Shown here: positions 12,869 to 34,773 of the stretch, in pieces
How the letters are laid out: every line of letters starts with the position of its first letter
Numbering within the stretch: position 1 is the stretch's first letter
Assembly: GCA_946490195.1 (NCBI GenBank)
Contig: CAMLWN010000007.1
Span: forward strand, 1 to 38,893
DNA: 38,893 nt
Source: an uncultured Mycoplasmatota bacterium
GTDB lineage: Bacteria > Bacillota_I > Bacilli_A > RF39 > UBA660
Direction: 5' to 3'
The notes under the pieces: model-generated
Databases searched by the model: none
Seen by the model: the letters and a program-made list of their open reading frames with translations, nothing else
Told to the model about the DNA's origin: nothing
Translations under genes and position numbers: made by a program

Positions 12869-12916
12869 ATTCATAGAAAATAGTAAAAGTTCTAATACTA
12901 AGAATGGGTGAGAAAA

Positions 12917-14524
12917 ATGAGCAAAACAAAAAAAATAACTTTAGGAGTTATTGGAGTATTATTAATTTTTTCATTAGTAATAGGAATAAGTTATGCTGCT
13001 TGGAGATTAACTTTAACTCAAACAAATCAAAACACACTTGCTTCAAGCTGTTTTGATATTACTTTTGAAGAAGAAAATCCGATTCTCCTTGAAAATACTT
13101 TTCCAATGTATGATGAAGATGGAAAAACATTAACTCCATATACATTCACAATAACAAATAATTGTAGTGCCTATGCAACATATCAAATTCAATTAGAAAT
13201 CATAAATACTTCAACATTAAAGGATGAATATTTAAAGATTATGATTGATGAAAAAAATCCAGTAATTTTAAACACATTACAATCAGGAGAAAAAACATTA
13301 AGTGAAGCAAGTAGAGCATACATCATTGACAATAATGCCCTAGATGTTAACGAAGAAAAAACATATAACATAAGAGTATGGTTAGATGAAAATGTCACAA
13401 CTGAAACAGAAGGAGTACAAAATAGTAATTGGAGTGCAAAAATTACAATTAATGCACAGTACAGTGATCGCTTGCCAACAGATTACGAAAAATGTGTAGC
13501 CAACTATGGAGAAGATAGTATTAATTGTCAAATTATAGCGCAGTTAGATACTACAGGTGCTTGTCCAACAGTAAATGAAGATGGAACAATTACTGTTACT
13601 AATACAGAAAGTGAAAATGGGTATGTTTGCAGTGCTCCAGATGATTATGGAACAAGTTATTACTTCAGAGGAAACGTAGAAAATAACTGGGTAAAATTTG
13701 CAAATACATATTGGAGAATTCTAAGAATCAATGGCGATGGTTCAATTAGAATGATTTATGCAGGAGATGCTACAGTCATAGATGCATTAGAAAATAAAGA
13801 AGAGGTCTTAAAAAATGGATATGATGATGGAAGTACTGACTACACTCAAATAGGAACCAGTGCATATAATGAATCATACGATGACAATGCCTACGTAGGA
13901 TATATGTATGGTGCACCAGCATCTTCTAGTTATGAAGAAACCCATGCAAACATCAATAATAGTACAATCAAAACAAAAATAGATGAATGGTATGAAAGTC
14001 ATATCAAAGATACAGAACATGAACAATATATCAGCGATACCTTATTTTGTAATGATCGAAGTATATCAGAATATAAGCCAGATAGTGATTATATAAATTC
14101 AGGAATAGGAAAGGAAAAAACAGCATACCGATGGAGGTATGGACCGTGGGATAGTAATAAACAATATCCAAGACTCACATGTAGCCAGCAAAATGACCGA
14201 TTTACAGTAAATGATGAAATATTAGGAAATGGATCTTTAACATATCCAGTAGGATTACTAACAGCAGATGAAGCAACAGTAGCAGGAGGATACAGTTCGA
14301 GTAATTCAAAATATTATCTATATACTGGAAACAGATATTGGACCATGTCTCCTAGCGATTTCAACGGCTCGCGTGCGTACGAGCGTGGCGTCGACTACGA
14401 TGGCGATGTCTACGACGGCAACTACCGCGCGAGTAGCTCGTATGGTGTGCGTCTGGTTCTCAATCTGAAGTCTGATAGTCTGAAAAAGGGCTCAGGAACG
14501 GCCAATGACCCATATACAGTATGA
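12917..14524 (+). CDS. Secreted protein with a C-type-lectin-like C-terminus, possible DGR target
   Basis: A 535-residue exported protein. The basic N-terminus and hydrophobic segment ending ISYAAWRLTLTQTNQN resemble TasA/camelysin-type (SipW-dependent) leaders. An immunoglobulin-like or TasA-like region (about 35-185) follows, then a linker with cysteines (about 190-240), then a domain starting YYFRGNVENNWVKFAN-YWRI and ending WTMSPSDF...YGVRLVLNLKS, the pattern of C-type-lectin/formylglycine-enzyme-like domains. Codons for residues ~476-535 are far richer in GC than the rest (60% against about 32-37%). Most codons between 480 and 507 end in C or T and encode Asn-derivable residues, as in DGR variable regions. 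The GTG at 12908 is in the ribosome binding site, so ATG 12917 is used. It follows, but is probably not co-transcribed with, the GT2 gene. The precise function is unknown; surface display and ligand binding are inferred. Confidence 0.8.
   Translation: MSKTKKITLGVIGVLLIFSLVIGISYAAWRLTLTQTNQNTLASSCFDITFEEENPILLENTFPMYDEDGKTLTPYTFTITNNCSAYATYQIQLEIINTSTLKDEYLKIMIDEKNPVILNTLQSGEKTLSEASRAYIIDNNALDVNEEKTYNIRVWLDENVTTETEGVQNSNWSAKITINAQYSDRLPTDYEKCVANYGEDSINCQIIAQLDTTGACPTVNEDGTITVTNTESENGYVCSAPDDYGTSYYFRGNVENNWVKFANTYWRILRINGDGSIRMIYAGDATVIDALENKEEVLKNGYDDGSTDYTQIGTSAYNESYDDNAYVGYMYGAPASSSYEETHANINNSTIKTKIDEWYESHIKDTEHEQYISDTLFCNDRSISEYKPDSDYINSGIGKEKTAYRWRYGPWDSNKQYPRLTCSQQNDRFTVNDEILGNGSLTYPVGLLTADEATVAGGYSSSNSKYYLYTGNRYWTMSPSDFNGSRAYERGVDYDGDVYDGNYRASSSYGVRLVLNLKSDSLKKGSGTANDPYTV
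14357..14455 (+). other. Putative DGR variable region (GC-rich 3' patch)
   Basis: Codons 481-513 of the secreted protein. GC is 36/60 in 14341-14400 and 35/60 in 14401-14460, against 19/60 in 14281-14340. Codons such as AGC, GAT, AAC, GGC, CGT, TAC, GAC and CGC dominate; about 20 of 30 variable-looking positions are NNC or NNT, as expected if AAC/AAT codons in a template were randomised at their adenines. Five are NNG. The conserved frame WTMSP...GVRLVLNL flanks it. No template repeat or reverse transcriptase is found in the window. Confidence 0.5.
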
Positions 14525-32529: not shown

Positions 32530-32561
32530 AAAGAAGGAGGATTACTACTTACTTCTTCTTT
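32530..32561 (-). terminator. Possible terminator of the 32545-33591 gene
   Basis: On the minus strand AAAGAAG (32561-32555) pairs with CTTCTTT (32536-32530), 18-base loop, followed by Ts. The stem begins inside the coding end. Confidence 0.4.
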
Positions 32562-33591
32562 GGTTCTTGTTATCATTTTGCAAATATTGATAAATTTTTG
32601 ACCAATTCATTTCTACATACTTCTGTATGGATAAAAGATTTAATTTTACTTTATCTTCATCAGTTAAAACTCCATAAATATCATTCGCATCCATGTTTTC
32701 AAATATTGCAGAAATTCCTCCTTGCTCATAATAATATTGCATTTCTGGATTTGAAAAAGGTTGTTGAAGAACATACTGAAAAATTTTTGCTTCAAAAGCG
32801 ACCATTTCATCTTCATGAGACACGGGTGGCACATAATCTTTAGGAATATAATTGATTTCATCAAGAGGTAAAGTAAAATCATAAGGATAGCCAAACAATT
32901 CACTTGGATATACATAATGTTTTCGTTCAAAATTCTTATCTTTAAAATTTGTTGGATTTAATGAATTAGACTGCAAAAACTCTAAACAAAATCCTCGTAG
33001 ATTCTTATAAGATTGCAAATCTGTTTCTAACTTATGATAAACTAAATAATCCGTACTTCTATAATAGCCTCGAATATTTTTTTTAATTTCCGGATCTACT
33101 ATACTTTCTGGTCGCAAAAGAAAACGTTTTGTATCAGGAGAACCGGTTGTATAAGAAAGTAAAAGATGAAGAAAATTTTTAAATTTATTATCCAATTGTA
33201 ATAAAATCTTTTGTTGATTTTGAACAGATTCCATTCTTTCTAAAGCTTCTTTTAGAATACCCTCTTCAATTTTTGGAGCTACTCTTAAAGAAGAATATCT
33301 GTATAAAAGGTCATAAAAACGAACTGCGTAGGTTTTTTTCTTCTCATTAAAGCTAACCCTAGCAATAAATATATCCATATCTTTTTCGTTTATATTTTTA
33401 AAAAAAGAAGGATTGTACTCTTGTAGTAAAGAGATAATTTCATTTTTAGTTAGATTTAAAGTAAAAAGCGCATCAATAAAAGTAATATCCGGAAATTCTC
33501 GTTCAACAAACATTTGGTCTTCTTGGATTATAGGAACTCGCAAAATATGCGCAACCTTATTTTTTGACCCCATTACATAATATTTCTTCAT
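32545..33591 (-). CDS. Hypothetical soluble protein
   Basis: A 348-residue protein without membrane segments that I do not recognise. It begins MKKYYVMGSKNKVAHILRVP, has a middle region rich in aromatic residues (GYYRSTDYLVYHKLETDLQS) and two Pro/Tyr-rich stretches (YPSELFGYPYDFTLP, IPKDYVPPV), and ends in a basic, Asn/Gln-rich tail. The start codon has AGGTGACGAGGA just upstream. It stands alone between the ZIP transporter and a small basic peptide gene. I cannot propose a function. Confidence 0.72.
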   Translation of the reverse strand: MKKYYVMGSKNKVAHILRVPIIQEDQMFVEREFPDITFIDALFTLNLTKNEIISLLQEYNPSFFKNINEKDMDIFIARVSFNEKKKTYAVRFYDLLYRYSSLRVAPKIEEGILKEALERMESVQNQQKILLQLDNKFKNFLHLLLSYTTGSPDTKRFLLRPESIVDPEIKKNIRGYYRSTDYLVYHKLETDLQSYKNLRGFCLEFLQSNSLNPTNFKDKNFERKHYVYPSELFGYPYDFTLPLDEINYIPKDYVPPVSHEDEMVAFEAKIFQYVLQQPFSNPEMQYYYEQGGISAIFENMDANDIYGVLTDEDKVKLNLLSIQKYVEMNWSKIYQYLQNDNKNQRRSK

Positions 33592-33658
33592 TCCTCGTCA
33601 CCTAAATACTATTTTACATGAAATACCAAACATTGGCAAATAAAATAAAATTTTCCTC

Positions 33659-33687
33659 GTATGAAAAAATAAACACCATCCATAATA
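33659..33687 (+). promoter_or_regulatory. Sigma-G-like (forespore) promoter
   Basis: GTATG (33659-33663), 17 bases, then CATAATA (33681-33687). This fits the forespore sigma-G pattern GYATR and CATnnTA at nearly the usual spacing. It sits 20 bases before a ribosome-binding-site-led micro-ORF. No good sigma-A alternative is seen. Confidence 0.4.
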
Positions 33688-33707
33688 CTAGTGGGAGGTA
33701 AATTGAA

Positions 33708-33812
33708 ATGAAAAAAAATAATAAGCAAAAACAAAATCGTTCTAGAAAAAATGAAAACAGACAAAATTCTAGAAAAGAAGAACAACGTAGAGAAGAACGT
33801 AAGAATTGTTAA
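33708..33812 (+). CDS. 34-residue highly basic peptide
   Basis: A micro-gene with a strong ribosome binding site (GGGAGG, 33692-33697) and a terminator right behind it. The product is almost entirely Lys, Arg, Asn, Gln, Glu and Ser (begins MKKNNKQKQNRSRKNENR, ends RREERKNC), with no hydrophobic core and a single C-terminal Cys. Such peptides are often nucleic-acid-associated or minor small spore proteins. The sigma-G-like promoter supports a forespore product, but that is inference. Confidence 0.6.
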   Translation: MKKNNKQKQNRSRKNENRQNSRKEEQRREERKNC

Positions 33813-33817
33813 TCACA

Positions 33818-33851
33818 AAAAAAGAATGATGATGTTTTATCATTCTTTTTT
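33818..33851. terminator. Bidirectional terminator between the basic peptide and xerD
   Basis: AAAAAAGAATGAT (33818-33830) / ATCATTCTTTTTT (33839-33851), eight-base loop. It serves both convergent genes. Confidence 0.85.
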
Positions 33852-34736
33852 ACTACGCGGATGTGCTTCAAGATATTCTTTTTTTACATGTTCTTTAGAT
33901 ACATGCGTATAAATCTGGGTAGTACTAATATTTTCATGACCCAAAAACTCTTGAATTACCCGCAAATCAGCTCCAGCATCTAATAGATGAGTAGCAAAAG
34001 AATGCCTTAAAATATGTGGACTTACGTTTTTCGTAATGGAAGCTTTTTGACATAAAGTTTTAAGAAGTTTAAATAATCCTTGTCTAGTCAGAGGGGTTCC
34101 ACGATTATTTAAAAAAAGTTCTTCATAATTTTTCCCATTTTTAATAAGTAAAGGACGATAGGTATAAATATATTTTTCTAAATATTCTTTACTTGTCTCA
34201 TTAAAAGGAATAACTCGTTCTTTACTCCCCTTCCCTTCAACACGAACCAAAAAATTTTCCAAATCTACATTAGTAAAACGTAAAGAAAGAAGCTCACTAA
34301 CTCGCATACCTGTGGCATACAAAAGCTCAAGCATTGCTTTAGTTCGGTAGTCATAAGGAGTATATAAAGGCATATTAAGAAGTCGATCAACCTCTTCATA
34401 AGTTAAATAATTAGGAAGTTTTTCTGGAAGTTTAGGCATATGAATCGTTTCACATGGATTTTCTTTAGTTAATCCTTCTTCGACACAAAAAAGATAAAAA
34501 TTTTGAATAACCGTAAAATAATGCGCTTTAGTCGTCGCAGCTTTTTGATTTTCTTGTTTTAAAAAAGCTAAAATATCTTCTTTAGTAACTTGAAAAAGAT
34601 CTTTTTGCTTCAAAAATTCTTGAAAAAGATAAAGATTTTCTTCATAAGAATTTACAGTATTTTTGCTAAGTTTTCTTTCATATTGTAAAGAATGCAAATA
34701 TTTTTTAATAGGTTCTTTTAAATGATATTCTTTCAT
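33840..34736 (-). CDS. xerD: Tyrosine recombinase XerD/XerC type
   Basis: Site-specific recombinase that resolves chromosome dimers at dif. 298 residues from ATG 34736; a GTG nine bases upstream is less likely because GTGAG there acts as the ribosome binding site. N-terminal SAM-like core-binding domain (about 5-95), then the catalytic domain with all residues in place: R145 (TGMRVSEL), K172 (GKGSKER), H241 and R244 (HILRHSF), H267 (LGHENI) and nucleophile Y276 (TQIYTHVS). They align with E. coli XerD positions 148, 172, 244, 247, 270 and 279. Divergent from rarA. Length and motifs favour the housekeeping enzyme over a phage integrase. Confidence 0.93.
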   Translation of the reverse strand: MKEYHLKEPIKKYLHSLQYERKLSKNTVNSYEENLYLFQEFLKQKDLFQVTKEDILAFLKQENQKAATTKAHYFTVIQNFYLFCVEEGLTKENPCETIHMPKLPEKLPNYLTYEEVDRLLNMPLYTPYDYRTKAMLELLYATGMRVSELLSLRFTNVDLENFLVRVEGKGSKERVIPFNETSKEYLEKYIYTYRPLLIKNGKNYEELFLNNRGTPLTRQGLFKLLKTLCQKASITKNVSPHILRHSFATHLLDAGADLRVIQEFLGHENISTTQIYTHVSKEHVKKEYLEAHPRSKKE

Positions 34737-34773
34737 AATTCTCACGAATTAAGTATAGAAAATATTTCCTCGA

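Follow-up and report, generated by a model that had tools for sequence, protein, structure and literature searches.

A conserved sigma-G-type gene beside xerD encodes a candidate DNA-packing peptide in Bacilli without detectable alpha/beta small acid-soluble spore proteins

The peptide unit

In endospores, alpha/beta-type small acid-soluble spore proteins (SASPs) count as the standard armour of the DNA. SASPs bind to spore DNA and protect it (PMC3533761). Here we describe a small gene whose product may stand in for the alpha/beta type, found in a 38,893-nt stretch of DNA (the window) that makes up one contig (CAMLWN010000007.1, our contig C7) of the 1.01-Mb, 80%-complete genome, in 52 contigs, of an uncultured Mycoplasmatota bacterium (GCA_946490195.1). 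Between positions 33,659 and 33,851 the forward strand carries a −35 element GTATG (33659–33663), a 17-nt spacer, a −10 element CATAATA (33681–33687), then CTAGTGGGAGG and, 9 nt beyond the ribosome binding site GGGAGG (33693–33698), the ATG (33708) of a 34-codon frame for the polar, basic peptide MKKNNKQKQNRSRKNENRQNSRKEEQRREERKNC, which runs to a TAA stop (33810–33812; gene 33708–33812) and is followed by a 15-bp hairpin (33818–33851). In the folding of a 61-nt stretch this hairpin is the minimum-energy structure (−15 kcal/mol, z −3.87), and its right arm overlaps the last codons of the convergent xerD gene (33840–34745, reverse strand; TIGR02225, 340 bits, above cut-off), so that the terminator can serve both genes and is probably bidirectional. 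A preliminary description of this DNA had read the same elements as a sigma-G-like promoter, a ribosome binding site, a small frame and a terminator, and all of them lie where it placed them.

In the window, GTATG and CATAATA at a spacing of 16–18 occur together once, against 0.01 expected in shuffles, and the pattern extended by GGGAGG and allowed up to three mismatches also occurs once, against none in 100 shuffles. The promoter pattern with up to two mismatches and without the ribosome site gives nine matches against 5.7 by chance, which is not above chance.

Conservation within the genus

The unit is present beside xerD in 33 of 36 sampled genomes of Candidatus Ventrenecus (a genus named in PMC12451612) and relatives, referred to below as the genus; XerD itself is found in all 36. 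A protein search (E up to 1) recovers the peptide in 11 of these genomes, and the DNA pattern GTATG-16/18-CATANTANTANNGGGAGG finds exactly one match in each of 21, every one followed by a polar peptide, with no match in the reversed-pattern control. Inspection of the xerD flanks gave 12 more units (G017, G018, G019, G020, G023, G026, G029, G033, G034, G003, G021 and G032), which show small departures in the −35 element or just after the −10 element. In G027 the peptide gene spans two overlapping contig ends. The unit was not seen in G016, where the contig stops within xerD, nor in G030 and G002 (L132 and L133), where other DNA adjoins xerD at the contig end. In G002 a search for the germination protease Gpr was negative as well, possibly a mark of lost sporulation.

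A stable structure follows the gene throughout, the 73 nt from the stop codon on folding at −10.2 to −21.5 kcal/mol in all 32 genus loci folded (G027 excluded; energies taken without a shuffle control). The unit-bearing loci include Candidatus Ventrenecus avicola, Ca. V. stercoripullorum and an “uncultured Bacilli bacterium”, and the isolate names point to chicken and rabbit (“Lapin”). That the unit is a real, conserved gene is well supported, and the preliminary description, for which a lack of conservation would have told against the peptide, gains from its presence in these 33 genomes.

Related peptides in the wider family

Beyond the genus, the gene is traced more readily through its promoter than through its sequence. 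An exact promoter scan of a collection of 84,980 species returned 30 stretches, 21 with genus-type peptides, four with other Ser/Asn/Arg-rich peptides lying between xerD and a zupT-like gene (L071, L073, L079 and L096; zupT named by eye), and five with unrelated frames or none (L072, L081, L086, L087 and L093). An eight-row alignment used as a profile against 386 family genomes was abandoned: beyond the window's own genome and G005 it returned only two weak matches containing stops, and it missed G022 and G033, which carry the gene. The promoter pattern was used for the family search instead. Allowing up to three mismatches, a 40-nt pattern matches 147 of the 386 genomes, against 15 when the pattern is read backwards, and the downstream DNA was read at 130 loci from 110 of the 147.

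Peptides were accepted at no more than 75 residues, at least 75% N, S, R, K, Q, E and A, and no more than two hydrophobic residues. Thirty-nine passed, of 28–57 residues, and XerD lies within the fetched stretch in 35 of them (L189, L214 and L217 have a peptide and no XerD in the stretch, and L140 has ZupT only). Together with the genus members of the sample (G000, G005, G022 and G033) this makes 43 peptide genomes in 19 genera. Like peptides thus stand behind similar promoters in 18 further genera, for the most part in that same slot. They too are rich in Asn, Ser, Arg and Lys but differ in sequence; mean column identity in our alignment A4 is 24%, and composition is kept across genera while sequence varies. 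One near miss, a 51-residue N/K/C-rich frame behind a promoter match in the SASP-positive genome G219 (L160), fails the filter (73%, six hydrophobic residues).

Other genes also stand behind sigma-G-like promoters in the family (L137, L152, L161, L180 and similar loci), among them a 63-residue MTQKEL..EDAIGHE protein, the lipoprotein-like frame NTPTKKVEEFLGKYQ, a 75-residue frame without a Pfam match and a weakly DUF2383-like protein; these are perhaps uncharacterised spore genes.

Composition of the peptide and evidence of translation

Among 29 unique complete genus peptides, none of the 1104 residues after the start is I, L, V, F, W, Y, M or P, where Markov sequences similar in composition and free of stops contain 7.3 such residues per peptide, and the per-gene P is at most 0.0033 for all 32 genus genes (300 Markov draws). 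Frame 0 has no hydrophobic residue in 1203 codons of the 32 genes, against 440 in 1171 in the +1 frame, and the +2 frame is broken by 251 stops. From 7 and 5 changes in six close pairs, one change being common to three of the pairs, pS is 0.067 and pN 0.009, which is weak evidence. From these sequence comparisons we conclude that the peptide frame is translated as read.

Across all 70 unique peptides from genus and family the net charge is +5 to +11, the lowest pI 10.4 and the median 11.5, and only 9 of 2878 residues are hydrophobic. Asn makes up 32.4% and Arg 15.8% of the residues, and Asn, Gln, Arg and Lys together about two thirds. Simple repeats such as NSAK, SRNE and SRSNNS are found. Cys is present in 54 of the 70 and missing from 16; in most members of the genus it lies at the C-terminus or close to it, and in other genera it shifts within the chain. 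AlphaFold2 gives the window peptide a low-confidence helix over residues 16–33 (mean pLDDT 65.8).

None of the library profiles tried accounts for the peptide. The window peptide has no match in Pfam (E 0.1) or NCBIfam, and neither do 37 representative peptides at E 0.1, with the alpha/beta SASP model PF00269 and the gamma-type and minor SASP models included; the lone listing for the 37, for one member at E 0.011, is that of an insect Transformer model. The peptide is thus not a SASP by membership. The preliminary idea of a real small spore-type protein nonetheless fits the sequence evidence, given a unit in 33 genus genomes and like peptides in 18 further genera.

Promoter class and sporulation sigma factors

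Sigma-G promoters have a consensus of the GTATG/GNATR-17/18-CATNNTA type, and the promoter of the unit agrees with it. At the 33 genus loci the −35 element reads GTATG in 25, GTATT in 5 and GTATA, GTATC and ACATG in one each, the −10 element reads CATAATA in 29 and CATATTA and CATACTA in two each, and the spacer is 17 nt in 32. Over the 28 distinct promoters of all 33 loci, the −35 and −10 elements hold 1.0–2.7 bits per position, against a spacer mean of 0.36 with 1.9 bits at its last base. Most of the 33 loci were found with the promoter motif itself and part of this conservation is thereby imposed; the 11 loci found by protein search alone all carry GTATG-17 with CATAATA (10) or CATATTA (1).

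In Clostridioides difficile, SASP and spoVA genes are driven by sigma-G in the forespore, spoVAC being one such gene, and sigma-F promoters keep a G upstream of the −10 element (PMC3789822). The C in that position of our promoter, set against the G of those sigma-F promoters, makes sigma-G fit better than sigma-F. The preliminary description had suggested a search for sigG, whose lack in the genome would have told against it, and for other SASP genes with similar promoters; sigG is present. The sigG gene (L012) scores 331 bits against NF006071 and 310 bits against TIGR02850, both below the curated cut-offs, and SigG is its best-scoring model; the genome also encodes SigE, SigK and a SigF-like factor, with all factor-specific equivalog models under their curated cut-offs. 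In the family, the motif (up to three mismatches) also precedes a spoVAC-like frame (PF03862) and an sspI frame (PF14098, 1.1e-18). Of seven frames behind the motif that were compared with Pfam, these two included, three score above cut-off (SspI, SpoVAC/SpoVAEB and DUF378), one matches weakly (DUF2383) and three not at all; the SspI and SpoVAC/SpoVAEB frames indicate that the motif does mark sporulation genes in the family. The shorter pattern without the ribosome site is too weak to be used alone, because in the window's own genome it gives eight matches against four in the control, and, of the three inspected besides that of the window, one lies before the frame of a 177-residue membrane protein and the others within a veg-like and a permease-like frame (named by eye). 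Overall, the assignment of the unit to the sigma-G promoter class is well supported.

Alpha/beta SASPs and Gpr

SASPs are the known substrates of Gpr. PF00269 is matched in none of the 36 genus genomes; Gpr (PF03418) is found in 32 of them, in open frames mostly of 243–274 residues. The finding that alpha/beta SASPs are not detected while Gpr is kept goes beyond what the preliminary description proposed. Across the family, PF00269 is present in 231 of 386 genomes and 97 of 150 genera, and none of the 43 peptide genomes is SASP-positive. Of the 110 genomes with a fetched promoter match, 55 are SASP-positive and 55 SASP-negative; the peptide occurs in none of the former and in 39 of the latter. 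The Fisher tests on these two comparisons treat genomes or genera as independent and ignore shared ancestry.

The genus Gpr is itself about 100 residues shorter than the Pfam model, the proteins of L031 and L038 aligning only to about positions 22–230 of 353, and a SpoIIP-like gene (named by eye) lies 3′ of gpr in L031, L035 and L038.

Proposed role and alternative explanations

Direct support exists for the gene and its conservation, for its promoter class, for the slot beside xerD and the composition of the product, for the lack of a detectable alpha/beta SASP and for the presence of Gpr in the genus. From these we infer forespore expression, location in the spore core, nucleic-acid binding, protection and replacement of the alpha/beta SASPs, as follows. 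The unit would be transcribed by sigma-G in the forespore. Its product is short and cationic, lacks a signal peptide and, in the genus, has no hydrophobic residue after the start Met; it would remain in the forespore and accumulate in the spore core. It would bind nucleic acid through charge and through hydrogen bonds from Arg, Lys, Asn and Ser, and DNA would be packed or shielded by it in place of alpha/beta SASPs. With modest confidence, we lean towards this reading, in which a forespore-made, protamine-like peptide takes over the DNA-packing role of the alpha/beta SASPs. More tentatively, a whole branch of gut Bacilli may have swapped these proteins for an unrelated, fast-evolving cationic family with a fixed slot beside xerD and a sigma-G promoter. 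If so, the system that coats the DNA of bacterial spores would have been displaced by a non-homologous one.

The proposed role has counterparts in known systems. With alpha/beta SASPs the peptide shares small size, a sigma-G-type promoter, a putative role as DNA protector in the spore core and, in the genus, mostly Gpr-bearing genomes; it differs in lacking a PF00269 match, in being shorter (28–57 residues) and nearly free of hydrophobic residues, in a sequence not conserved between genera, and in occurring in genomes that themselves have no PF00269 match. The gamma-type SASP SspE and the minor SASPs (SspH–SspP, Tlp) are small, polar sigma-G products, often rich in Asn, Gln, Lys or Arg, and none of the 37 representative peptides matches their models. 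With protamines it shares short length, basic and polar character, simple repeats and fast sequence evolution at conserved composition. Arg, at 16%, is however not its main residue, Asn being twice as frequent, and the peptide is bacterial and known here from sequence alone, so that the likeness is one of analogy.

Other roles for a forespore-made peptide of this kind have to be weighed. Bacillus subtilis SspE is unstructured and rich in Asn and Gln, and a nitrogen or amino-acid store of the gamma type, produced in the forespore and broken down during germination, with no part in coating DNA, would suit both the high content of Asn, Gln, Arg and Lys and the retention of Gpr; a single 34-codon gene would nevertheless be a small store, would need neither the steady positive charge of all 70 peptides nor their near-complete lack of hydrophobic residues, and matches no gamma-SASP model, and we regard a store as unlikely. 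In charge and polarity the peptide is suited to RNA no less than to DNA, and the single exact promoter match in each of 21 genomes would be in keeping with an RNA- or ribosome-binding peptide or a small regulator; sequence motifs would then be expected, yet it is mostly composition that is kept across genera, and this role, too, seems improbable to us. Rather doubtful is a structural peptide cross-linked through Cys into another spore layer or protein: most peptides do have a Cys, commonly near the C-terminus in the genus, but 16 do not, its position moves in other genera and no export signal is apparent. As for a chance open frame, the A-rich intergenic setting, the AT-rich sequence and the mere 34 codons might invite it, and the recurrence of promoter, ribosome site and frame in 33 genomes, with no hydrophobic codon in frame 0 of the genus genes, many in the +1 frame and 251 stops in the +2 frame, makes it extremely improbable.

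Several observations weigh against DNA packing by a SASP substitute. The net charge is modest beside that of real protamines, with a third of the residues Asn, and the modelled helix leaves some doubt that the peptide is fully disordered. All 19 genera may belong to one clade, in which case a single switch at its base would yield the same table of exclusion as many events. Of the 155 SASP-negative family genomes, the peptide was found in 43 and in none of the other 112, which may hold a copy whose promoter has diverged further, may be unable to sporulate or may need neither protector; in 16 SASP-negative genomes the fetched promoter match precedes another gene. The peptides from outside the genus were picked by a composition filter, behind a pattern that even when reversed matched 15 genomes against 147, and SASP-positive genomes were screened by that pattern rather than by reading their xerD slots. 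The genomes are incomplete, so that absences are not proof. No Gpr was detected either in the genome of the window, which is 80% complete, or in the peptide-bearing G003. Finally, a gene survey based on KEGG annotation finds essentially no SASP genes in Erysipelotrichales, some of which still form spores (PMC10868615); spores may be possible without any such protein.

The same survey predicts spores in uncultured orders related to Erysipelotrichales (PMC10868615), and its spore formers without SASP genes raise the question of what guards their DNA. For such a SASP-less lineage the peptide family is a concrete candidate guard, and if it is confirmed, spore DNA protection without alpha/beta SASPs becomes directly testable. 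Literature searches in a limited set of PMC papers found no description of such a peptide. The family was found by following promoter, slot and composition rather than sequence similarity, and genes of this kind can escape annotation, as the want of any profile match illustrates.

Neighbouring genes and other features of the window

Upstream of the peptide promoter lies the dyad CCAAACATTGG (33626–33636, no strand assigned), within the spacer of a divergent sigma-A-like promoter, TTGCCA-17-TAAAAT (33639–33611, reverse strand, read by eye). The corresponding dyad CCAANNNTTGG, whose middle three bases vary, occurs within 130 nt upstream in all 32 genus loci checked and looks like an operator for some regulator. 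We considered it as part of the peptide gene and rejected this: inspection by eye of the 90 nt preceding the promoter in L071, L073, L079 and L096 did not show it, so it more likely belongs to the divergent promoter. It is also present in L005, whose divergent gene is zupT-like.

The divergent gene of the window (32545–33591, reverse strand) encodes 348 residues. A like gene occupies this place in six of the seven genus loci with frames listed (the window, L006, L008, L009, L010, the last by eye, and L011), with the zupT-like gene in its stead in L005. The 348-residue protein matches no Pfam family over cut-off and nothing in NCBIfam. Four homologues from the genus are 30–46% identical and share a conserved C-terminal ENMxA motif.

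Elsewhere in the window, a 538-residue frame with a GTG start (12908–14524) has no Pfam or NCBIfam match at the thresholds used. The two sporulation genes that the preliminary description had placed in this stretch were both recovered, spoIVB at 304.2 bits (cut-off 305.25) and spoIIM at 26.9 bits (PF01944), a score equal to its cut-off.
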